A program made the translations under genes and the position numbers. A model generated the notes under the pieces. It worked only from the letters and a program-made list of their open reading frames with translations, was not told where the DNA came from and did not search any database. From NCBI RefSeq assembly GCF_000384315.1, contig NZ_ARVW01000001.1:1993746-2057745 (forward strand): DNA of 64,000 nucleotides, given 5' to 3'. Source of the DNA: Amycolatopsis nigrescens CSC17Ta-90. GTDB lineage: Bacteria; Actinomycetota; Actinomycetes; Mycobacteriales; Pseudonocardiaceae. This document shows, one piece after another, positions 36,109 through 52,055 of this stretch (positions are counted from its first letter, which is position 1; each line of letters opens with the position of its first letter).

Positions 36109-38397
36109 TTAGTGGACAGTTCCAGGAAACACCGGCGCGGGCCGTGGCGAGCCCGCTATGCCGAGCCGTTCACGCATATCGACGACACGCGGATCATCAA
36201 TGGTCGTGTAGAAGTCCAGCGCGTTCTGCCATTCCGCTCTGGCGGCTTCGACCTTGCCGAGCTCGTGCAGGATGTCACCACGGCGGACGTGCGAATCAGC
36301 CACGCCCCACCGGTCGTCGGCCTCGCGGCGCACCCGCAGGGACAGGTCGAGGTAGTGCAGGGCTCGTTCCCGTTCGCCTCGCGCCCGGTGCACTTCGGCG
36401 AGTTTCGCCAGTTTCCGGCCCTGCCCGTAACGGTTGTGCAGCTTCACGCACGCCCGCAGCGCGCGCTGGGTGGTCCTGATCGCGGTGTCGGACTGGCCGG
36501 TCTGCCGGTACACATCGCCCATCGTCGCCAGCGTGGCGGCCTCACCGTCCTGCTCGCCGAGCCGGTCGAACAGGGCAAGCGCCTGCTCCGCGTACTCGCG
36601 GGCCCGCGTGTTCTGGTTCCGTTCACAGCTCAAGCAGGCCAGGCCGTAGAACGCCCACGCCTGGCCATGAGGGTCGCCGACCTCGGTGGCGACCGCCAGC
36701 GCCTGCTCGAACTCGGTCTCGCTGAGATCGAAGTCCCGGCGCCAGAAGTGGAAGGCCGCCAGGTTGGCATACACCCAGCCTTCCGCACGCCGGTCCCCTG
36801 CGGCCCGTGCCGCCCGCAACGCGACCTCGTCCACGGCCAGCCAGGTGGACCACGCCTTGCGGAACAGGAAGTAGTCGTACAGCAGGACCGCGAGTTTCCA
36901 AGCGAGTTCCGGCATGCCGTGCTCGACGGCCTGCTGGATAACCGGCACGACGTTGTACATTTCGGACTCACACCACCGAAGCGCCGTCGCGGCGTCCTCG
37001 AAGAACACCTCGGGATCCGCCCCCTCGAGCAGGTCGAAGAGCGTCGGCAACGGGGCACGGTAGGGCGCGATCTGCAGTGCGGCGGCCGCGGCCGAGCGCA
37101 CGTACCACTCGGTGAGCCCGCACACCACCTGGCGACGGTCGGTATCGGAATCCTCGGCACGAGCGCGTTCAGCGGCGTAGAGCCGGAGAAGGTCGTGCAG
37201 CCGGTAGCGGCCATCCCCCAGTGACTCCAGCAGATGCACGTCGGCCAGCGCCTCGATCAGCCGGCGAGCCTGACCCTGCGGCACCCCGGCCAGTGCGGCG
37301 GCCGCGGCGACGCCGAACTGGGGGCCAGGGTGCGAGCTCAGGACTCGGAACATGCGGGCGGACTCGTCGTCCAGCGCCCGGTAGGACCAGGAGAACACCC
37401 CGCGCACCGCAGTGGCATCGTCGATGGCCAGCAGGTCCAGACCTGTGGTGGCCAGCTGGTCGACCACTTCGGCCACCCCGCCCGGCGGCCGGGAGAGCAC
37501 CCGTTCCGCGGCGATCCGCAAGGCCAGCGGCAGATGCGCGCAATGCCGAGCCAGTGCCCGCACCGCCTCCGGCTCCTCGTTCACCCGTTCCGGGCCGATC
37601 ACGTTGCGCAGCAGCGCGAAAGACTCCTCCGGCGGCATCGAGCGCACGGTGACCCGCCGGGTGTGCACCCGCACACCGAGACCAGGCAGCGGACTGCGAC
37701 TCGTCACCACCACCACGCACCCCGCCGACCCCGGCAGCAACGGCTCGAGCTGGGCCACCTGGGCCGCGTTGTCCAGCACGACCAGCACGCGCCGGCCGGC
37801 CAGCAGCGACCGGTACAGCCCCGCGCGCCTGCCGAGCCCGGAGGGGATGCGGTCCGCGGGCATGCCCAACGTGGACAGGAACTCCTCAAGCACCTCGTCG
37901 GCACCCAGCGGACACTGAGCGCCGCTGTAACCGCGCAGGTTCGCGTAGAGCTGCCCATCCGGGAACAAGGCGGCGACCTCGTGCGCCCAGCGCAACGCCA
38001 GTGTGGTCTTACCCGCCCCCGGAGGACCGTCGATGGTCACCACCAGGGGCGCTCCCACCTGCTCCGGAGCCGACAGCGCCGCGTGCAACGCGCGCAGCTG
38101 CTCCGACCGCCCCGAGAAACCGGCCGTGACCGCCGGCAGCTGCGCCGGCAACACGGTCGTCTCCAGGTCCGCCACCGCCAATGCCGCGAGCTTGCCCCCG
38201 GCCTCCAGCACCTCGTCGCACCGCCGGGCCAGGTCCGCCGAGGGCGGTGCGCCGTTCTTCACCTTGCTCAGCCAGCTCGGCGTGTAACCCACCAGTTCGG
38301 CCAGCTTCCGCCAGGACAGGCCACGCCGTGTCAGCAGCCTCGCCAGCTCCCTGCTGAATGCCGTACTTCCAGGCCGCTGAACCGAACCCTCGGCCAT
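36109..38397 (-). CDS. HTH-NB-ARC-TPR transcriptional regulator
   Basis: A 762-residue STAND-type protein. An XRE-like HTH (LARLLTRRGLSWRKLAELVGYTPSWLSKVKNG) occupies about 18-50. The NB-ARC ATPase has the P-loop GPPGAGKTT at 124-132, RVLVVLDNA (Walker B) near 205, and LPLALRIAAERV in the GxP-like region. TPR-like helical repeats run from about 480 to the end. Such proteins act as ATP-dependent, signal-controlled switches and often regulate secondary metabolism. ATG 38397 is chosen; a GTG at 38418 is in frame. The 296 bases upstream (to 38693) hold no gene and are A/T-richer, with several small dyads. Confidence 0.85.
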   Translation of the reverse strand: MAEGSVQRPGSTAFSRELARLLTRRGLSWRKLAELVGYTPSWLSKVKNGAPPSADLARRCDEVLEAGGKLAALAVADLETTVLPAQLPAVTAGFSGRSEQLRALHAALSAPEQVGAPLVVTIDGPPGAGKTTLALRWAHEVAALFPDGQLYANLRGYSGAQCPLGADEVLEEFLSTLGMPADRIPSGLGRRAGLYRSLLAGRRVLVVLDNAAQVAQLEPLLPGSAGCVVVVTSRSPLPGLGVRVHTRRVTVRSMPPEESFALLRNVIGPERVNEEPEAVRALARHCAHLPLALRIAAERVLSRPPGGVAEVVDQLATTGLDLLAIDDATAVRGVFSWSYRALDDESARMFRVLSSHPGPQFGVAAAAALAGVPQGQARRLIEALADVHLLESLGDGRYRLHDLLRLYAAERARAEDSDTDRRQVVCGLTEWYVRSAAAAALQIAPYRAPLPTLFDLLEGADPEVFFEDAATALRWCESEMYNVVPVIQQAVEHGMPELAWKLAVLLYDYFLFRKAWSTWLAVDEVALRAARAAGDRRAEGWVYANLAAFHFWRRDFDLSETEFEQALAVATEVGDPHGQAWAFYGLACLSCERNQNTRAREYAEQALALFDRLGEQDGEAATLATMGDVYRQTGQSDTAIRTTQRALRACVKLHNRYGQGRKLAKLAEVHRARGERERALHYLDLSLRVRREADDRWGVADSHVRRGDILHELGKVEAARAEWQNALDFYTTIDDPRVVDMRERLGIAGSPRPAPVFPGTVH

Positions 38398-38693
38398 CAC
38401 GCCCGCGAACCCGGACACACGACCCGGATCACTGACAAGAAATGTCCATCCCGCTCGACCGGGAAGATCACCATCGATATTCCTGACTCTGGTAAAAGAA
38501 CGGCACCCGTCGCCGGACTGCGCTCAACTGAGCGACTTGAGCCGCACGACATTCGGCACGATAGCTACGAGCTCCACGATAAAAGAAACCCCGATGCGCA
38601 GCCACACCTTTCACCTCGCACGGGTGAGAGCTAGCTCAAACCTGACTCGTACTTGTAGCACGCAAATAGATCCAGTAATAACGAATAGCGCGG

Positions 38694-44188: not shown

Positions 44189-45838
44189 ATGACCGCGTTG
44201 CCGGGGGACGTGCCGGAAGAAGTGCTGCGCACCTCGATCGTCGAGCGGTTGTTCGCCCGCGCGGCCGACCCGCGTCCGCTGTTCACGCACCAGGACCACG
44301 GCCATGGTATGGACCACACGGTCAGCTGGGCCGAGTTCGTCACCAGGGTGCGGGAGGTGGCGGGCACCCTGCGCCGGGTCGCGGAGCCGGGTGACCGCGC
44401 CGCCGTGCTCACCGGCCAGGATCTGAACTACCCGCTCGCGTTTTTCGGCGCACTCGCTGCCGGCCTGGTGGCGGTGCCGTTGATGGCGCCGGGCAGCCGC
44501 GCCCAGCGAGGCCGGCTCGCCGGCGTGCTGGCGGACTGCGACGCGCGGGTCTGGCTGACGTCCTCGGCCGCCGCGGCGAAGACGCGCGAAGCCGGGACGC
44601 CCGAACAGCTCGTGGTGGTCGACGAGCTTTCCGGGCCAGGCTCCGATCCACTGCCGGTCACCCCGGAGAGCCCGGCCTACCTCCAGTACACGTCCGGGTC
44701 GACCCGGGAGCCCGCCGGCGCGGTGATCCCGCACCGGGCGATCTCCGCCGCCTGCTGGCAGGCCAGCCGCGCCTACGCCGTCGACGAGGGCACGACCTGC
44801 GCCGGCTGGATCCCGTTCTTCCACGACATGGGCCTGATCCAGCTGCTGTGCCTGCCGGTCTTCGCCGGCGCGCGGTCGGTGTTCATGGCGCCCGCCGAGT
44901 TCGTGCACCGGCCCGCCCGGTGGCTGCGCCAGCTCGCCGATCATCCCGCCGTGTTCACCGCCGCGCCGAACTTCGCGTTCGACCTCGCCGCCGACGCCGC
45001 CGAACAGGCAGGGGACGACCTCGACCTGTCCGGCGTGCGAATCGCGCTCAACGGCAGCGAGCCGGTCCGGCCGGGCACGATCGCGCGGTTCCAGGAGGTC
45101 TTCGGCCCGCGCGGGTTCCGCCCCGAAGCCCACCGCCCGTCCTACGGCCTGGCCGAGGCGACCGTCTACGTCGCGAGCGCGGGCGCGGAGGGACCGCGGG
45201 GTGCGGTGTTCGACCGCGAAGCCCTCGCGCAGGGCCGGGCGATCGAGGTGCCGGACGGCCAGGAGCTCATTTCGGTCGGCCGTCCCCTCGGCCAGCGGGT
45301 ACGGATCGTCCGCGACGGCGCGGCGCAGCCCGAAGGCCAGGCCGGGGAGATCTGGATCCACGGCCCGAACGTCGCGACCGGTTACTGGGGCCGCGGCGAC
45401 ACCGCCGTGTTCGGCGCCGAGCTGGACGGCGTCCGCGGCTGGCTGCGCACCGGTGACCTCGGCGTCTTCCACCACGGCGACCTCTACATCACCGGCCGGC
45501 TCAAGGACCTCATCGTCATCGACGGCCGGAACTTCCACCCGCAGGACATCGAAGCGGTGGCGGGCGAGGCACATCCGGCGGTGCGCCGGGGCCGGGTCGC
45601 CGCCTTCGGCGTATCGGACGAGAACGGCGAAGGGGCGGTGGTGGCGGCCGAATGGACCAGCGATGCCGACGCCGACGAAAAAGAGGTCACCAGGGCCGTG
45701 CTCCGGGCCGTGTCCCGCGAGTACGACCTCACCCTGCGTTCGGTGCACCTCGTCCCGTCCGGCGAACTTCCGCGCACCTCCAGCGGCAAGATCACCCGGT
45801 CGGCCGCTAAGGCACGTTATAGTCGGGCCCGTGGTTGA
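44189..45838 (+). CDS. Fatty acyl-AMP ligase (FAAL)
   Basis: A 549-residue ANL-superfamily enzyme. The AMP-binding loop is QYTSGSTREPAGAVIPH, then WIPFFHDMGLIQ. The core ends with LRTGDLGVFHHGDLYITGRLKDLIVIDGRNFHPQDIE. The GRNFHPQDIE form is characteristic of FAALs, which load acyl groups onto carrier proteins instead of CoA. It activates a fatty acid as acyl-AMP. It is the first gene of a five-gene operon, and its stop lies inside the start of the ACP gene (eight bases shared), so the ACP is almost certainly its acceptor. Confidence 0.92.
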   Translation: MTALPGDVPEEVLRTSIVERLFARAADPRPLFTHQDHGHGMDHTVSWAEFVTRVREVAGTLRRVAEPGDRAAVLTGQDLNYPLAFFGALAAGLVAVPLMAPGSRAQRGRLAGVLADCDARVWLTSSAAAAKTREAGTPEQLVVVDELSGPGSDPLPVTPESPAYLQYTSGSTREPAGAVIPHRAISAACWQASRAYAVDEGTTCAGWIPFFHDMGLIQLLCLPVFAGARSVFMAPAEFVHRPARWLRQLADHPAVFTAAPNFAFDLAADAAEQAGDDLDLSGVRIALNGSEPVRPGTIARFQEVFGPRGFRPEAHRPSYGLAEATVYVASAGAEGPRGAVFDREALAQGRAIEVPDGQELISVGRPLGQRVRIVRDGAAQPEGQAGEIWIHGPNVATGYWGRGDTAVFGAELDGVRGWLRTGDLGVFHHGDLYITGRLKDLIVIDGRNFHPQDIEAVAGEAHPAVRRGRVAAFGVSDENGEGAVVAAEWTSDADADEKEVTRAVLRAVSREYDLTLRSVHLVPSGELPRTSSGKITRSAAKARYSRARG

Positions 45839-46094
45839 TCACCCCGCCGAGGTCGTGCAGGTCGTCAGCGAAACTTTCCGGCTCGACCCTGCCGGCATCG
45901 AGCGCGACGCGCTGCTCGAGGAGCTGGGCATCGACTCCAAAGGGCGGATCAAGCTGCTGTCCGCGCTGGAGATCTACTACGACGTGACCATTGATCTGGA
46001 CCAGCTGGACCGGTTCACCGACATACGTTCGGTATCCGAGGTGCTCGCCGAAGCGCTCGGCGGCAAGGCCGGCGGATCTGACGAAAGGCTCTGA
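45831..46094 (+). CDS. Acyl carrier protein
   Basis: An 87-residue carrier protein with the phosphopantetheine-type Ser36 in LGIDSKGRIKLLSALE, and the usual acidic helix II and III (YYDVTIDLDQLDRFTDIRSVSEVLAEAL). The residue after Ser is Lys instead of the common Leu, which is unusual and may affect which transferase and partners recognise it. It starts at GTG 45831, overlapping the FAAL gene by eight bases. Confidence 0.88.
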   Translation: MVDHPAEVVQVVSETFRLDPAGIERDALLEELGIDSKGRIKLLSALEIYYDVTIDLDQLDRFTDIRSVSEVLAEALGGKAGGSDERL

Positions 46095-46095
46095 A

Positions 46096-46407
46096 GTGAG
46101 CGGAGGCTACACCGCGGCGACCGATGCGCTGTCGTCGGCGTCCAAGAACATCGGCAAGCTCAAAGAGCAGCTGGTGGAGGACAATCCGGAGCTGTCGCCA
46201 ACACCGGTGAAAGCGGCCGGCTTCGGCCAGGCGCACGGCGACCACTCGGGGAAGTACACCGCCGGGGTGGACGCATTGGGCGCCGCGGTCAAGGGCTACA
46301 GCGGCGCGCTCGGCGGCTTCGGCACCAAACTCAGTACTGCGGGCGCCAAATACGGCGCCAACGAGGATGAGCAGGGCAACGCCATCGATCAGGCAGGGAA
46401 GCAGTAA
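46096..46407 (+). CDS. Small WXG100-like / ESX-secreted-type protein
   Basis: A 103-residue protein of two probable helices: ATDALSSASKNIGKLKEQLVEDN and YTAGVDALGAAVKGYSGALGGFGTKLSTAGAKYGANED, with a turn GFGQAHGDHSGKY. The composition (Gly/Ala/Ser, no Cys) and the position before a larger W-x-G-containing protein are like the small partners of type VII (ESX) substrates. No W-x-G is present in this one. It starts at GTG 46096, one base after the ACP stop. Confidence 0.6.
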   Translation: MSGGYTAATDALSSASKNIGKLKEQLVEDNPELSPTPVKAAGFGQAHGDHSGKYTAGVDALGAAVKGYSGALGGFGTKLSTAGAKYGANEDEQGNAIDQAGKQ

Positions 46408-49385
46408 TGGGCACGAAATGGAGCGACGTCAAGGCGGTCCTCGACGACCCGAGCGTGCCTCCCGGCGCGAAAACCGTGCTGATCAGCAGCTGGATGAAGA
46501 CACATCCGGCCCCGCCGCCGTTCATGTCGGACCAGGAACCGGAAGACATCAAGAAGCTTCGGAAAGAAGCCGAGAAGTACGCGGACTCGTACAACGCCAA
46601 TCCCTTTGTGGCCACCGACGATGTGGACGGGGCCTATAAAGCCGCAAAGGGTGCCGGTGATCAGGCCAGCTACAACCGGCGCGAAGAGTCGAAGGCCGTC
46701 GACAAGGGCAACGAGAAGCTCGACAGCGCCAAGGCGCCCGGCGCCGATGGCGGCGGGACCGAGAAGTCCGACGAGCTGTTCGACGCCGCCGTGCCCGCGC
46801 TCAAGGTGTTCGAGACCTTCGGTTCGTTGCTGGCGAAGCTCCCGGACGACTGCCGCGGCACCACTCGCGCGCTCGACTTCGAAAAGGACATCAAGAAGCC
46901 GTTCGACCAGCAGCGCGGCATCATCTTCCGGGACTTCGTGGACGACGCCGCCCATTTCAAGACCGGCTCGACCACGGTCGAACGGACCATGAAGGACACC
47001 GAATCCCAGCTGAACACCCTGCGCCAGAGCTGGAGCGGCGACGGCGCGGACGCGGCATCGGACGAGTACAACGAACAGATCCTGCCCAAAGCGAAAAAGC
47101 TCGCCGAGACCCTCAACAATGCCGGTGAAACGACGCTGAAGACCACCACCACGGTGTTCGAGCTGTGCAAGGGCAAAGCCGACGCGGTCATCGAGCTGCA
47201 CACGGATCTGGTGGGCCGCGCGGACTTCGCGATGGCGCAGAAGGTCGTCGCGATCGCCAGCGGCGAGAAAAGCGGGGTGGAAGACCTGGCCGAGATCGCG
47301 GGCTGGATGGACGTCAACTTCGGCTCCAACCTGGTCGAGACCCTCAACAGCCAGGACGGCTGTTGCGACGACGACGAATACAAGAAGGCCGGCCAGAACC
47401 TGGCCAAGCAGTGGGTGCAGAACCAGTTCAACCCGGACATGTGGGACCGGATCTACCAGGGATTCGTCAAGACCTGCGAGGACACCAAAGAACTCGTCGA
47501 CCAGGCTTACGACGAGCTCGACAAGGTGATGGGCAAGGTCAAGAACGAGTTCGAAGGCGCGGACAAGCCACCCGGCGATGACAAGGGCGGGTCCGGCACC
47601 GGCGGCTCGGGCGGTCCCGGCGGCGGCAAGGGTGGTGCCGGCGGCCCGGACATCCCCGACATCAATGCGGACGGCCCCGGCAACGGCGGGGGTGGCCAGG
47701 GCGACGGCTCGGGCGGACCTGGCGGCGGCGGTTCAGGCACCGACGGCGAGGGGATCCCCGACGTCAACTCGGACGGGACCGGCGAAGGCCAGGGCGGACC
47801 CGGCGACGGCAAAGGTGGACCCGGCGGCGGCCCGGAGATCCCCGGCGGTGGCTCAGGCGCACCAGGTGGTGGTCCAGGTGGTCCCGCTGATGGGAAGGGC
47901 GCTGACGGAAAGGGCGGCGGTGGCGGCCCGGTTCCCCCGGTCCCGGACGTGTCCTCGCCATCAGGCGGCGGGCCCGGCGGGGGCTCCGGGCCGGATTCGA
48001 GCAAGGGTGACACCGCGCCATCGGGCTCGGCTCCGCCGCCGTCCTCCGGCGATCAGGAAGCAGCGGCCGAGGCGGCGAAGAAGCAGGAAGCGGCCGCTGC
48101 CGCCGAAGAGGCGAAGAAGAAGGCCGCCGAAGCGCTGGGGAAGTCCGGCGGCGGCTCGGGCCCCGGCGGCGAGAGTCTCGGCGGCGGTTCGGGTCCCGGT
48201 GGCAGCCCTGGTGGCGGTTCGGGTCCCGGTGGCGGCACCGGGTCGGAGGGCGGCGACGGCAAGGCGGCCGCCGAGAAGGCCGCCGAAGACGCAAAGAAGC
48301 AGGAAGCGGCGGCCGCCGCGGAAGAGGCGAAGAAGAAGGCGTCCGAGGCGCTGGGCAAGATCGGCGGCGAGTTGCCCGGCCAAGACGGCGACAAGCCGGC
48401 CGGCGACAAACCCGGTGAAGGCGGCGACAAACCCGGCCAGGACAACGACAAGCAGGGCAGCGACCACAAGCCCGGCGAAGACGGCAAGGACGGCGACTCC
48501 AAGGACGACGAACGCGAAGTCCTCAAAGTCAAGCAGGGCGACAAGAGCTTCGAGATGTCCGAGCCGGACCAGGACGGCAAGATGGACATCAAGGTCGGTG
48601 ACGGTTCCGGACCCGCCAAGGAGTTCAAGCTCGACTGGCCCGAAGACGGGGAAAAGCCAGGGGCGGACGACGGGAAGCCGGGCGAGGACGGTGTCCACCG
48701 CCCCGGCCCGGACGGCAAGATCCACGTCCAGGACGGCGACCTGAAGATCACCGCCGAACGACCCGACGGCCCGAACGGCCCGACGGTCGTCACCGTCGAC
48801 GACGGCACCGGCAAGCCGACCACCTACACCCTCGGCGAGGAAGACTCCGACGGGGACAAGAAATCCGACGGCGACAAGGGCTCCCACGAGGACAAGCCGT
48901 CGCCGGCCTCCCGCCCTTCCGGAACGGAACACCAAGAGCCTCGTCCCGCCCTCACCCCGCACCTCACCGAAAGTGACAGCGGCGGCAACGGCGGCGGTGG
49001 CCACGGCGGCGGTGGCGGCGGCCCAGCGGTCGCAGCGCCCTTCGGCGACGCGACCGCGATGCCGAGCGATACGCCGGCATCGCTGGCCGATGGCGCCCAC
49101 AGCGGGACGGGGGCGCACCAGCCGCAGCCCGCGTCCTCGGCGTTCGCGCCCGCGGCCACGACGGCGGGCGGGGCCCCTGGGCAGCCGGTCGGTGGTGGCG
49201 CGATGCCACCGATGGGCGGCATGGGCGGCGGTGGCGGCGGCGCGAACGGCGGCGGCGATCAGGAGCGCACCAACCGGGCATACCGGATCGAGGGCGAAGT
49301 GTTCGATCAGGTCAACGCGCCCACCGGCCGGATCACCGGTTCCCTACTGGACGACGAGGAGCTGCCGGTCACCCGCAAGCGGTGA
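46407..49385 (+). CDS. Large Gly/Pro-rich putative secreted (ESX-type) protein
   Basis: A 992-residue protein. Residues 1-390 are helical with LRQSWSGDGADAA near 205-217, similar to the WxG turn of ESX substrates. 391-550 is a Gly/Pro/Asp-rich linker. Two Ala/Lys/Glu coiled-coil segments (about 550-578 and 623-651) are near-duplicates. 652-705 is Lys/Asp/Gly-rich. About 704-830 is β-like (EVLKVKQGDKSFEMSEPDQ, DLKITAERPDG). A second Gly-rich part follows, and the conserved-looking tail is NRAYRIEGEVFDQVNAPTGRITGSLLDDEELP. There is no signal peptide and no TM helix. Its start overlaps the previous stop (TAATG). It may be a surface or secreted filament-like protein; that is inference. Confidence 0.7.
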   Translation: MGTKWSDVKAVLDDPSVPPGAKTVLISSWMKTHPAPPPFMSDQEPEDIKKLRKEAEKYADSYNANPFVATDDVDGAYKAAKGAGDQASYNRREESKAVDKGNEKLDSAKAPGADGGGTEKSDELFDAAVPALKVFETFGSLLAKLPDDCRGTTRALDFEKDIKKPFDQQRGIIFRDFVDDAAHFKTGSTTVERTMKDTESQLNTLRQSWSGDGADAASDEYNEQILPKAKKLAETLNNAGETTLKTTTTVFELCKGKADAVIELHTDLVGRADFAMAQKVVAIASGEKSGVEDLAEIAGWMDVNFGSNLVETLNSQDGCCDDDEYKKAGQNLAKQWVQNQFNPDMWDRIYQGFVKTCEDTKELVDQAYDELDKVMGKVKNEFEGADKPPGDDKGGSGTGGSGGPGGGKGGAGGPDIPDINADGPGNGGGGQGDGSGGPGGGGSGTDGEGIPDVNSDGTGEGQGGPGDGKGGPGGGPEIPGGGSGAPGGGPGGPADGKGADGKGGGGGPVPPVPDVSSPSGGGPGGGSGPDSSKGDTAPSGSAPPPSSGDQEAAAEAAKKQEAAAAAEEAKKKAAEALGKSGGGSGPGGESLGGGSGPGGSPGGGSGPGGGTGSEGGDGKAAAEKAAEDAKKQEAAAAAEEAKKKASEALGKIGGELPGQDGDKPAGDKPGEGGDKPGQDNDKQGSDHKPGEDGKDGDSKDDEREVLKVKQGDKSFEMSEPDQDGKMDIKVGDGSGPAKEFKLDWPEDGEKPGADDGKPGEDGVHRPGPDGKIHVQDGDLKITAERPDGPNGPTVVTVDDGTGKPTTYTLGEEDSDGDKKSDGDKGSHEDKPSPASRPSGTEHQEPRPALTPHLTESDSGGNGGGGHGGGGGGPAVAAPFGDATAMPSDTPASLADGAHSGTGAHQPQPASSAFAPAATTAGGAPGQPVGGGAMPPMGGMGGGGGGANGGGDQERTNRAYRIEGEVFDQVNAPTGRITGSLLDDEELPVTRKR

Positions 49386-49405
49386 GCCACGGCACGGGAG
49401 AGCGT

Positions 49406-49810
49406 ATGAGCGACGATGACAGCTCCGGCATGAAGACGAACCTGGACGGCCTCGTCCGCGAGCAGACAGACCGCCGGGCCATGCGGGAACAGCGGGGCAA
49501 GGAGATCAAGGCCCGCGCCCAGGAGTACATGACCAAACAGGTCCAGACCGCCCAGCGTTACGTCGAGCACCGCCGCGAACTGGGGCAGCGCAAGACGAAG
49601 TCGGGCTGGAGCACCGACCGGTCGCAGGCGGAGCCGGCGCCGCCGCCGACGTTCGAGGAACCAGCGCCCCTCCCCGGCGGGGACGCCCCGTTCGCCCCGG
49701 CGGGGCCTGCCCACGCGACGCCGGATGCTCCTCGCCGTGCTCGTCGTCCTCGCCCGGCTGAGATGGACGACGAAGACGACGCCTTCCTCAACAACCGCTG
49801 GCGCGATTGA
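49406..49810 (+). CDS. Small charged protein, last gene of the FAAL operon
   Basis: A 134-residue protein. The first half is a charged helix (LVREQTDRRAMREQRGKEIKARAQEYMTKQVQTAQRYVEHRREL) likely to form a coiled coil. A Pro/Ala/Glu-rich segment follows, and an acidic tail ends DDEDDAFLNNRWRD. ATG 49406 has GGGAGAG just upstream. A GTG at 49382 overlapping the previous stop is an alternative. It could be a chaperone-like or anchoring partner of the 992-residue protein. No known family was recognised. Confidence 0.6.
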   Translation: MSDDDSSGMKTNLDGLVREQTDRRAMREQRGKEIKARAQEYMTKQVQTAQRYVEHRRELGQRKTKSGWSTDRSQAEPAPPPTFEEPAPLPGGDAPFAPAGPAHATPDAPRRARRPRPAEMDDEDDAFLNNRWRD

Positions 49811-49970: not shown

Positions 49971-52055
49971 CTAGTGGAGGTCTTCGTCCTCGCGCAGGCC
50001 GGCGAGGATGCGGGCCGCCTTCGGGCTGCCCATCCGCTCGTAGATCGCCGCCGCCTGGTGCCGGTAGGTCCTGGCCTGCTGGTGGTCGCCGGTGCGTTCG
50101 GCGACCGTCGCCCGGTGTTTGGCGATATCGGCCTGCAGGGCCGTGAGGTCCTGCTCGGTGGCACGGTCGTTGGCGTCAGCGAGCACTCGTCCGGCGTCGG
50201 CCAGGTCGCCAGCGTCGAGGTGCGTTCGCGCGGTGTCGAGCAGGATTCTCGGCACCAGGCTCGGTTCACCCGCCGCCTCGGCCAGACCTCGTGCGCCGGC
50301 GAAGGTCGCTATCGCTTCGTCGACCTCGCCGAGGGCGGCGAGCGCGCGCCCGACGAACGAGGTCTGCATCGCGGTACCGCGGCCGGTACCGAGACGGATG
50401 TTGATATCGAGTGCCGCGCGGAACCACTCGAGCGCGGCGGCGGGGTTTCGCTCGCGCAGCGCGAGATTGCCGGTGAAGTCGAAAGTGGACGCTTGCAGCC
50501 GGTCGTCACATCGAGCGGCGAGTTCCCTGGCGCGGTCCAGTTCCGCTCCCGCCTCCGGATAGCGGCCCCACTCCTGGTACGCCTTGCCGAGCAGGCAGCG
50601 GCACCGCGCCTCGGCGGCGGGATTTTCGGCCAGCTCCGCGGAGGTTACCGCGAGCTGCGCGGCACGAACCCAGAGGTCGAGTGGCCGTCGGGCGTCGAGG
50701 AAGGCGAACAGAGCCTCGAACAGCTGCCATACCCGGTCGTGCCAGGCTCGCGCGGCGGCGGCCTCCATCGCCGCCAGGATGTTGGCCAGCTCCCGGTCGA
50801 ACCAGTCCAGCGCGGCGCGCCGGTCCAGCGGCACAGGATCGGTGCCCAGCAAGCGAACCGGGTCGGCGATGCGCAGCCGTTGTGTCCCGGTGGCGGCGAC
50901 GTCGGCGGCCGTGGCGCCGAGCAGCCACCAGTCGACCGCACGGGCCAGCATCGAGATCCGCAGGTCTTCGGAGTCCTCCTCCTCGGCAACGCGCAAGGCG
51001 TGCCCCCGGACCAGACGGTGCATTCCGTACGTCCCGTCCGGCAGTTCGTCGAGCAACCCGCTCAGGCACAGTTGGTCGAGATCGGCGCTGACCTCGGTCA
51101 CCGGGCGGCCCCGCACGGCGGCGAGCACCTCGGCCCCGAAATGCGCACCGACCAGCACACCGAGTGCCCGGTAGAGCGACCGCAGCCGGTCCGGCAGGGC
51201 GTGGTAGACGGTGTCGAACACGGTGAGCATCCGGTCGAGAACTCCGCTGCCCGCGCCGGCACGCAGCTCGCTGGTCAACCGGCCCACGCTGCGGTTGGGA
51301 CGGACCGCGAGATACGCCCCCGCGACCCGCAGCGCGAACGGCAAGCCCCCGCACAGCTCGACCAACGTCGCACTGTCCTTTTTGGACTTACCAACCCTGT
51401 CGTCCTGGCACATACCGCTGAGCAGCGCGATACCGTCCTCGATGGTCAGCGGATCCAGCGTCACCGGCACGGCGCCGTGCACCACCAGCTCTTCCAGCGC
51501 CCTGTTCCCGGCGACCAGCACCATGGCCGCACCGGAGTTCGGCAACAGCGCGTTCACCTGCGCCGCCTCGGTCACATCGTCGAGCACGACCATGATCCGG
51601 GATTTCTTCGTCAGCGACCGGTACAGATCAACCCGCGGTTCGAAGCCTGCCGGGACCAGCGCCTCCGGCACCCTCAGCCCGGCCAGCACCCGTCCCAGCG
51701 CGGCGGCAGGTGAATCTCCTTCCGGCCCGAACGCGGCGTGCAGCACGCCATCGGGGAACAGCCCGGCCAGTTCCGCGGCCGCCATGCGCAGCAGCGCGGT
51801 CTTCCCGACACCCGGGGTACGCCCCACCACCACGACGACCGGGCTTTTCCTGGACGGATCGGTCAGTTCCGCCAGCTCGCGCAGCAGCCTGCGCTGCTCG
51901 TTGCGATCCACAAAGCCTTCCGGCGGCGGTTGGACCTGCGCCGGCACCACCGGCGGCAGCTCAGGCGCGGCGAAGGTGACCGTCCCGATGCTCCCGGCCT
52001 GCACCACCTGCACGGCGGATCCGGAGAACTCATTGCGCGGCCCCGCACCGACCAT
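49971..52055 (-). CDS. NB-ARC/TPR protein with an N-terminal VVQAG motif
   Basis: A 694-residue STAND ATPase. Residues 8-28 (NEFSGSAVQVVQAGSIGTVTF) are the short actinobacterial motif compared to RHIM-like amyloid signalling sequences. The NB-ARC domain follows with P-loop GRTPGVGKTALL (78-89) and RIMVVLDDVTEA (Walker B). Helical repeats of the TPR type fill the C-terminal half (LLGKAYQEWGRYPEAGAELDRARELA, AALEWFRAALDINIRLG). In known systems such motifs pass a signal to an effector carrying the same motif; no effector is adjacent. Confidence 0.85.
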   Translation of the reverse strand: MVGAGPRNEFSGSAVQVVQAGSIGTVTFAAPELPPVVPAQVQPPPEGFVDRNEQRRLLRELAELTDPSRKSPVVVVVGRTPGVGKTALLRMAAAELAGLFPDGVLHAAFGPEGDSPAAALGRVLAGLRVPEALVPAGFEPRVDLYRSLTKKSRIMVVLDDVTEAAQVNALLPNSGAAMVLVAGNRALEELVVHGAVPVTLDPLTIEDGIALLSGMCQDDRVGKSKKDSATLVELCGGLPFALRVAGAYLAVRPNRSVGRLTSELRAGAGSGVLDRMLTVFDTVYHALPDRLRSLYRALGVLVGAHFGAEVLAAVRGRPVTEVSADLDQLCLSGLLDELPDGTYGMHRLVRGHALRVAEEEDSEDLRISMLARAVDWWLLGATAADVAATGTQRLRIADPVRLLGTDPVPLDRRAALDWFDRELANILAAMEAAAARAWHDRVWQLFEALFAFLDARRPLDLWVRAAQLAVTSAELAENPAAEARCRCLLGKAYQEWGRYPEAGAELDRARELAARCDDRLQASTFDFTGNLALRERNPAAALEWFRAALDINIRLGTGRGTAMQTSFVGRALAALGEVDEAIATFAGARGLAEAAGEPSLVPRILLDTARTHLDAGDLADAGRVLADANDRATEQDLTALQADIAKHRATVAERTGDHQQARTYRHQAAAIYERMGSPKAARILAGLREDEDLH

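Follow-up and report, generated by a model that had tools for sequence, protein, structure and literature searches.

A fatty acyl-AMP ligase and acyl carrier protein joined to ESX-4-related proteins in Amycolatopsis: a candidate acyl-supplied type VII secretion module

The window analysed here is a stretch of 64,000 nucleotides of Amycolatopsis nigrescens CSC17Ta-90 (bases 1993746-2057745 on a single 9.1 Mb contig, NZ_ARVW01000001.1), and it carries at positions 44189-49810 a compact operon of five open reading frames (ORFs), all present on the same strand and at the coordinates given in a preliminary description of the sequence. The operon encodes a fatty acyl-AMP ligase (FAAL), an acyl carrier protein (ACP) and three further proteins, designated here ESXs (the small protein), BIG (the protein of 992 amino acids, aa) and LAST (the charged protein), or collectively the trio (ESXs-BIG-LAST). 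The FAAL and ACP genes overlap by 8 bases, ESXs and BIG by 1 base, and BIG and LAST by 4 bases; the ACP/ESXs junction is a 1-base gap, so that the overlapping five-gene transcript proposed earlier holds at three of its junctions. No polyketide synthase (PKS) or nonribosomal peptide synthetase (NRPS) is present in the operon, and the proposal of a stand-alone FAAL-ACP unit tied to type VII secretion system (T7SS)-type proteins is supported. In window coordinates, the features are as follows.

44189..45838, strand +: FAAL, 549 aa (PF00501, E 3e-58; closest solved chains are FAALs)
45831..46094, strand +: ACP, 87 aa (PF00550, 36.4 bits against a cut-off of 20.8)
45936..45938, strand +: Ser36 codon of the ACP, the expected phosphopantetheine site (DSK), from motif conservation
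46096..46407, strand +: ESXs, small T7SS-partner-like protein, 103 aa, with F-G-x-x-H and no WXG
46351..46365, strand +: YGANE, a YxxxD/E motif at residues 86-90 of ESXs, from the sequence
46407..49385, strand +: BIG, large Gly/Pro-rich protein, 992 aa, from homologue names and a structure model
46407..47576, strand +: N-terminal helical domain of BIG, residues 1-390
46941..47150, strand +: WXG100 domain of BIG, residues 179-248 (PF06013; WSG at 47031-47039)
48519..48833, strand +: beta domain of BIG, residues 705-809, eight predicted strands, mean predicted local distance difference test score (pLDDT) 81
49254..49382, strand +: conserved C-terminal tail of BIG, ER..(Y/W)R..G..F..., found in most of 73 BIG tails
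49382..49810, strand +: LAST, charged coiled-coil protein, 142 aa from GTG, or 134 aa from the ATG at 49406
49568..49570, strand +: His55 of LAST (numbered from the ATG at 49406), a lead from linkage tracking

The FAAL contains the GRNFHPQDIE motif reported for it, and its closest solved chains are FadD32/FadD23-type FAALs (E 6e-108). The top-ranked curated (NCBIfam) models are also FAALs, none of them reaching its cut-off; among characterised AMP-binding enzymes, the closest relatives are thus FAALs and not CoA ligases. Alignment with the FadD32-type chains leaves just short gaps around residues 325-360, the expected region of the FAAL-specific insertion that blocks CoA use. All trees used in this work are quick and midpoint-rooted, and "next to" and "sister" depend on that root. 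In the FAAL tree, from which 31 of the 38 loci L118-L155 were omitted as near-copies, the 28 trio-linked rows form one clade (Shimodaira-Hasegawa-like approximate likelihood ratio test, SH-aLRT, 98) that adjoins L047 and L048, two PKS-linked FAALs of A. nigrescens. The ACP has a phosphopantetheine-binding (PP-binding) domain and the phosphopantetheine serine, at Ser36 and followed by Lys37 as described earlier; its closest solved chain is 6kxf_C, the ACP of the ishigamide PKS (E 2e-8).

In the case of the trio, the small protein had been called WXG-like, and this does not stand: WXG is missing from ESXs, which matches nothing in Pfam or NCBIfam up to E=1, and the WXG100 domain of the operon lies in BIG. 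WxG occurs in 2 of 70 ESXs homologues, and two homologues located at ESX-4 match WXG100 weakly, under the cut-off, so that ESXs is not assigned to this family. YxxxD/E is a general T7SS signal. It is found within the last 40 residues of all 70 ESXs copies, against 15% of shuffled tails, and ESXs would on this motif be the signal-bearing partner of a T7SS substrate; FGxxH is conserved in 55 of the 70. BIG scores above the cut-off of the Pfam WXG100 model (PF06013, 31.4 bits against 27.3) and below that of the NCBIfam model (40.3 against 44.85), and its WSG turn, already recognised, corresponds to residues 209-211. Many of its homologues carry the name "WXG100 family type VII secretion target". 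The structure model of BIG (mean pLDDT 62.5, predicted template modelling score 0.46, residues 1-380 mostly at 80-95) combines the helical N-terminal domain with an extended disordered region rich in Gly and Pro, two helices and the beta domain, for which structure comparison gave no clear fold match. Residues 170-262 of the model superpose on EsxA with a root mean square deviation (rmsd) of 1.4 over 92 residues, and residues 159-386 on PPE domains with an rmsd of 3.5-4.0 over about 165; since BAR-type bundles reach an equal Z, the PPE fold is suggestive only, and PF00823 (PPE) is absent among the BIG matches up to E=1. LAST, the charged fifth protein of the preliminary description, has an acidic tail with Asn-Asn and Trp in the alignment, 62 of 64 copies having the Trp among their last 6 residues, and a coiled coil judged from its sequence; neither LAST nor ESXs has a significant Pfam or NCBIfam match. 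By a crude hydropathy scan, all five operon proteins lack a hydrophobic stretch at the N-terminus.

The distribution of the operon was followed with the N-terminal 388 residues of BIG as a query against 60 genomes of the same genus. A match at E <= 1e-3 was obtained in 58 of these, and 53 carry a copy of the window type, which is either the window itself or a match at 47-79% identity; the remaining seven comprise five genomes with paralogous copies only and two with no match at all. The 53 window-type loci consist of 14 loci, 38 fetched as stretches of just 4.5-8 kb, and the window. In all 53, the order FAAL-ACP-ESXs-BIG is kept, with LAST next in 51 and the other two loci ending first. Such constancy exceeds chance, whereas none of the genes on the flanks is shared by more than 16 of these loci. 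The automatic calls contain all five genes at 48 of the 53 loci, with median intergenic gaps, from FAAL to LAST, of -17, 1, -1 and 9 bases. Among the five exceptions, L129 and L155 are cut by the contig end, the ACP of L024 was missed by the gene caller and recovered by tblastn, L143 has a spurious 25-aa call, and L021 has its large ORF split in two (BIG is called there as pieces of 900 and 113 aa, perhaps by a frameshift or an assembly error). Named BIG homologues at 60-75% identity are nearly all from Amycolatopsis, one being labelled Streptomyces sp., so that the 60 genomes are very probably of that genus. The preliminary description had made the idea of a stand-alone system depend on conservation of gene order outside close relatives; the order is kept throughout the genus and also in an adjacent group of genus rank, and that objection therefore falls away.

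The trio is paralogous to another trio, without an ACP, that lies beside the ESX-4 core of this same genome (L045), where EccB, EccC, EccD, mycosin and two WXG100 genes each score above the curated cut-off. The window operon is located about 0.7 Mb from that core and not beside eccB-eccC-eccD-mycP. BIG is found in 175 of 249 genomes of the family, representing 37 of 46 genera. Forty loci from other genera were hand-picked by score and genus, and are thus a non-random set, with two from one genome (G275); within the fetched stretches they contain glmM (38 loci), glmS (33), esxU-like and esxT-like genes (34 each) and an alpha/beta hydrolase gene (30), neighbour labels having been tested on examples only, for rplM, rpsI, glmS and glmM. 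In L036-L038, two tandem ESXs-BIG-LAST units without FAAL or ACP lie between glmM and glmS, downstream of rplM-rpsI. A FAAL-ACP-trio occupies the glmM/glmS place in L027, L029 and L032-L035, and FAAL-ACP precedes the trio at the ESX-4 place in L057, L058, L096 and named loci such as L209, L213, L215 and L217 as well, some of these being the same genomes. ESX-4 neighbours are visible in the fetched stretch of five of the 53 window-type loci (L027, L029, L032, L152, L153); the FAAL-ACP-trio is thus at ESX-4 in some lineages and elsewhere in most. At the level of the order, 90 of 298 genomes match a wider profile, many over a short WXG-like stretch only. Five loci probably from Mycobacterium, which belongs to another family (L102-L104, L116, L117), have an ESXs-BIG pair after glmM with low profile scores of 18-46 bits, a pair that probably corresponds to Rv3440c-Rv3439c of M. 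tuberculosis.

Several other genes occur around these loci. An alpha/beta hydrolase gene opposite to glmS, a possible esterase or acyl-handling partner, lies beside many ESX-4 trios (L064:15101-15916, L045:796-1617) and in four of the five probable Mycobacterium loci; it is PETase/chlorophyllase-like in L064, and the copies in L045 and L034 match no NCBIfam model. The ESX-4-sited L033 (12903-13853, with a weak TIGR04515 match) and L035 (12744-13676) encode, divergent to FAAL, a P450-derived protein of about 310 aa, and a second small/large/charged triple, which does not cluster with the trio and is possibly a distant paralogue, lies near the FAAL-ACP-trio in L027 (12958-15671) and L033 (13898-16943). 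One of the five probable Mycobacterium loci, L102, has a 619-aa FAAL-like gene near the ESXs-BIG pair on the opposite strand. Within the ESX-4 locus of this genome, eccC and the esx pair flank an HSP70-like gene of 658 aa (L045:10407-12383). In the window itself, the gene upstream of the operon is divergent and encodes an HTH/DUF5753 regulator according to a family scan, and there are two NB-ARC/TPR proteins, at 36109-38418 (strand -) and 49971-52055 (strand -), one of them directly downstream of the operon and convergent with it.

A second type of acyl module is associated with the same trio. Eleven of the 40 other-genus loci, from nine genus codes, have an ACP and a ketosynthase (KS) next to the trio, with a degenerate ketosynthase where the contig reaches it. 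The cassette is downstream of the trio in ten of the eleven and divergent in L072; in L066, LAST is uncalled and the contig ends after the ketosynthase. Among 24 named loci, whose genomes overlap the 40-locus set, ten are of the KS type, eleven have FAAL-ACP and three have neither or are cut. The KS type is found in Prauserella muralis, P. cavernicola, P. endophytica, P. flavalba, P. salsuginis, P. aidingensis and P. alba, and in Qaidamihabitans albus, Amycolatopsis arida and Actinophytocola algeriensis; the FAAL-ACP type is found in Amycolatopsis marina, A. palatopharyngis, A. acididurans, A. alkalitolerans, A. suaedae (where the ACP lies in an ORF merged by the gene caller), A. anabasis, A. 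sacchari, A. pithecellobii, Amycolatopsis sp. GM8, A. acidicola and A. bartoniae. The cassette of P. muralis, the sole one tested, is closest to the ishigamide set (6kxd_A, E 8e-149; 6kxd_B, E 1e-57; 6kxf_C, E 2e-15), 6KXF being described in the part of the source consulted as the ishigamide ACP-containing structure (PMC7949117). A search of the A. nigrescens genome for a chain-length factor (CLF) gave one match (E 1e-7, 27% identity); the window operon has no KS-CLF pair and is not an ishigamide-type highly reducing type II PKS. In L067, L069 and L204 (Actinophytocola algeriensis), a second BIG gene without its own ESXs follows the KS-CLF cassette.

The ACPs of the two modules can be compared directly. 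The motif is DSK in 51 of 51 called window-type ACPs and DSM in 11 of 11 ketosynthase-linked ACPs, and FAAL-linked and KS-linked ACPs fall into one clade (34 rows, SH-aLRT 98), separate from 39 carrier-domain rows of this genome (37 distinct, with two identical pairs, drawn from part of 56 carrier-domain matches). The tree leaves out 35 of the 38 loci L118-L155, the ACP of L024, which was uncalled, and, among 30 PP-binding stretches from this genome, 5 that had a stop or lacked the Ser motif. Because a single ACP clade is served by two acyl modules, the dedicated ACP seems to be constant and the acyl source exchangeable, and one dedicated ACP lineage with an exchangeable acyl source seems to be the simplest reading of the sequences. 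In the BIG tree, KS-linked BIGs adjoin the main FAAL-linked clade (SH-aLRT 95). L033, L034 and L035 are FAAL-linked, yet they belong to a separate BIG clade in which the unlinked L036 and L038 are sisters of L035; with FAAL-linked BIGs in two clades, ACP linkage was gained or lost more than once. In LAST, His55 is present in 27 of 28 ACP-linked copies and 1 of 35 unlinked ones (L072 and L059 omitted), a difference that corresponds to just 3 independent pairs on the tree and is not significant. As this residue tracks ACP linkage, LAST is the likeliest candidate, as a best guess from sequence, for the ACP-facing part of the trio.

Gene content, the fixity of gene order, kinship with ESX-4 and the shared ACP clade are established at the level of sequence comparison, and the operon is best explained as an ESX-4-associated type VII secretion module in a form supplied with acyl-ACP. 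In such a module, the FAAL would adenylate a free fatty acid and load it onto holo-ACP; the acyl-ACP would dock on the trio, with LAST as the likeliest adaptor; and the acyl chain would be moved onto, or bound by, the ESXs/BIG pair prior to export through ESX-4. The lipid-bearing exported protein could then remain on the outer face of the membrane or wall. Such acyl transfer would need an activity within the trio itself or encoded elsewhere. That the acyl-ACP step acts on the trio, by lipidation or lipid loading, is a tentative view to which we would give somewhat less than an even chance. The bolder proposal, in which a branch of type VII secretion beside or derived from ESX-4 lipidates its own cargo, with an ACP charged by FAAL or by a type II PKS passing its acyl chain to a PPE-like complex that is then exported, appears doubtful.

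Several observations weigh against an acyl-supplied secretion module. The Pfam scan identified no acyltransferase family among the five operon proteins, and beyond the five genes no neighbour is common to more than 16 of the 53 window-type loci, 38 of which are short stretches. The comparison rows of the ACP tree all come from this one genome, and the tree has 82 columns. The PPE-like fold modelled for the N-terminal part of BIG is suggestive and is matched as well by BAR bundles. The trio has no adjacent ACP in 26 of the 40 other-genus loci, and some genomes with a FAAL-linked trio also have a second trio without FAAL (L059, L207, L211); with ACP-free trios so common, the lipid would be dispensable for the basic function of the trio.

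Comparison with known systems suggests both kinship and distance. Homologues of the trio genes lie near glmM in 38 of the 40 picked family loci, in which respect the trio resembles the ESX-4 locus, although those 26 ACP-free loci also lack an acyl-loading enzyme beside the trio and the window copy lies away from ESX-4. A small/large gene pair is located between glmM and glmS at ESX-4, and PE-PPE and EspB-type pairs serve as models of T7SS substrates. The window proteins share with such pairs a small YxxxD/E partner followed by a WXG-bearing helical large protein with a disordered tail, whereas they have no Pfam PE or PPE match and add a third charged protein and an acyl module. As in FAAL + PKS units of the FadD32-Pks13 and FadD28 type, the window FAAL clade adjoins PKS-linked FAALs, but the window ACP stands as a protein of its own, falls in another clade and is not followed by a PKS. 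Both the P. muralis cassette and the window ACP are closest to the ishigamide-type highly reducing type II PKS (Iga10/Iga11 + CLF; 6KXD-6KXF); the window operon has a FAAL instead of KS-CLF and includes no tailoring enzyme. Acyl-ACP serving an exported protein would follow the same logic as HlyC in RTX toxin acylation, yet the operon has no HlyC-like gene and the route would be type VII, not type I.

Other explanations have to be considered. In the first, the product of FAAL-ACP or KS-CLF-ACP is a small lipid (an N-acyl amine or fatty amide, for instance) that the trio exports or binds outside the cell, its own proteins staying unacylated. The kinship of the tested KS-CLF-ACP set with the ishigamide synthase, a member of a small-molecule pathway, fits this proposal, as does the separate beta domain of BIG; however, the orphan operon has no conserved releasing or tailoring enzyme alongside it, and the beta domain is present also in many copies without an adjacent ACP, so that we consider a small-lipid product rather unlikely. 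Alternatively, the acyl-ACP could be a signal or structural partner that the trio binds in the cytosol, export being gated by fatty-acid supply and the acyl chain staying on the ACP. Such gating requires no transferase, and would be in keeping with a constant ACP clade under a changing acyl source and with a small, charged LAST that has a residue tracking ACP linkage. Yet keeping a dedicated FAAL or KS-CLF for sensing would seem expensive if the acyl-ACP of the cell sufficed, and the evidence from the LAST residue is not significant; we regard gating as improbable.

It could also be argued that FAAL-ACP supplies a PKS or NRPS at a distant site in the genome and lies ahead of the trio only by accident. 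The genome has at least four PKS plus very long multi-carrier ORFs resembling further assembly lines, and its FAALs nearest to that of the operon are PKS-linked; a scan of ten other window genes identified no PKS or NRPS. The preliminary description had named use by a distant PKS as a danger to its proposal, and an indirect and partial answer comes from the six next-closest FAALs of this genome. Four of these (L047-L050), including the two closest, lie beside a large PKS with its own N-terminal ACP, which is not close to the window ACP, and the other two (L051, L052) do not. Together with an operon order kept in 53 of 53 loci, this makes service to a distant assembly line very improbable. Least probable of all is co-transcription without functional coupling, i.e., an old FAAL-ACP insertion upstream of the trio retained via a shared promoter: neighbouring trios without FAAL-ACP, and one small clade with unlinked sisters (L036 and L038 against L035), are what it would predict, but a second, different acyl module with a same-clade ACP is found at this locus as well, on the opposite side of the trio, and the five genes stay together across differing neighbourhoods.

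Full-text literature searches, mostly at title level and covering few subscription journals, found no ACP or FAAL tied to T7SS substrates. In the portions of the sources consulted, ESX-4 is presented as the ancestral ESX cluster (PMC4791881, whose consulted text has no mention of Rv3439), further ESX-4 substrates are said to await identification (PMC11791044), and the T7SS genes eccB, eccC, eccD and mycP are listed for an Amycolatopsis strain with this operon unmentioned (PMC11004387).

Altogether, the parts are of known kinds and their combination appears to be new. Across many genera of one family, the trio is retained next to ESX-4 as a set of candidate substrates, to which a dedicated acyl carrier with two exchangeable acyl sources is joined. 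The fixed association of fatty-acid-loading enzymes with T7SS cargo-like proteins suggests an unrecorded route for placing lipids on, or sending them with, secreted proteins. If the cargo were lipidated in this way, it would provide lipid-anchored surface proteins without a Sec signal or lipobox, and a form of bacterial protein lipidation separate from both Sec/Lgt lipoprotein processing and HlyC. If the acyl transfer is real, it would constitute a new mode of protein lipidation or lipid export in which lipid supply is linked to type VII secretion, and one that could be tested in Amycolatopsis.

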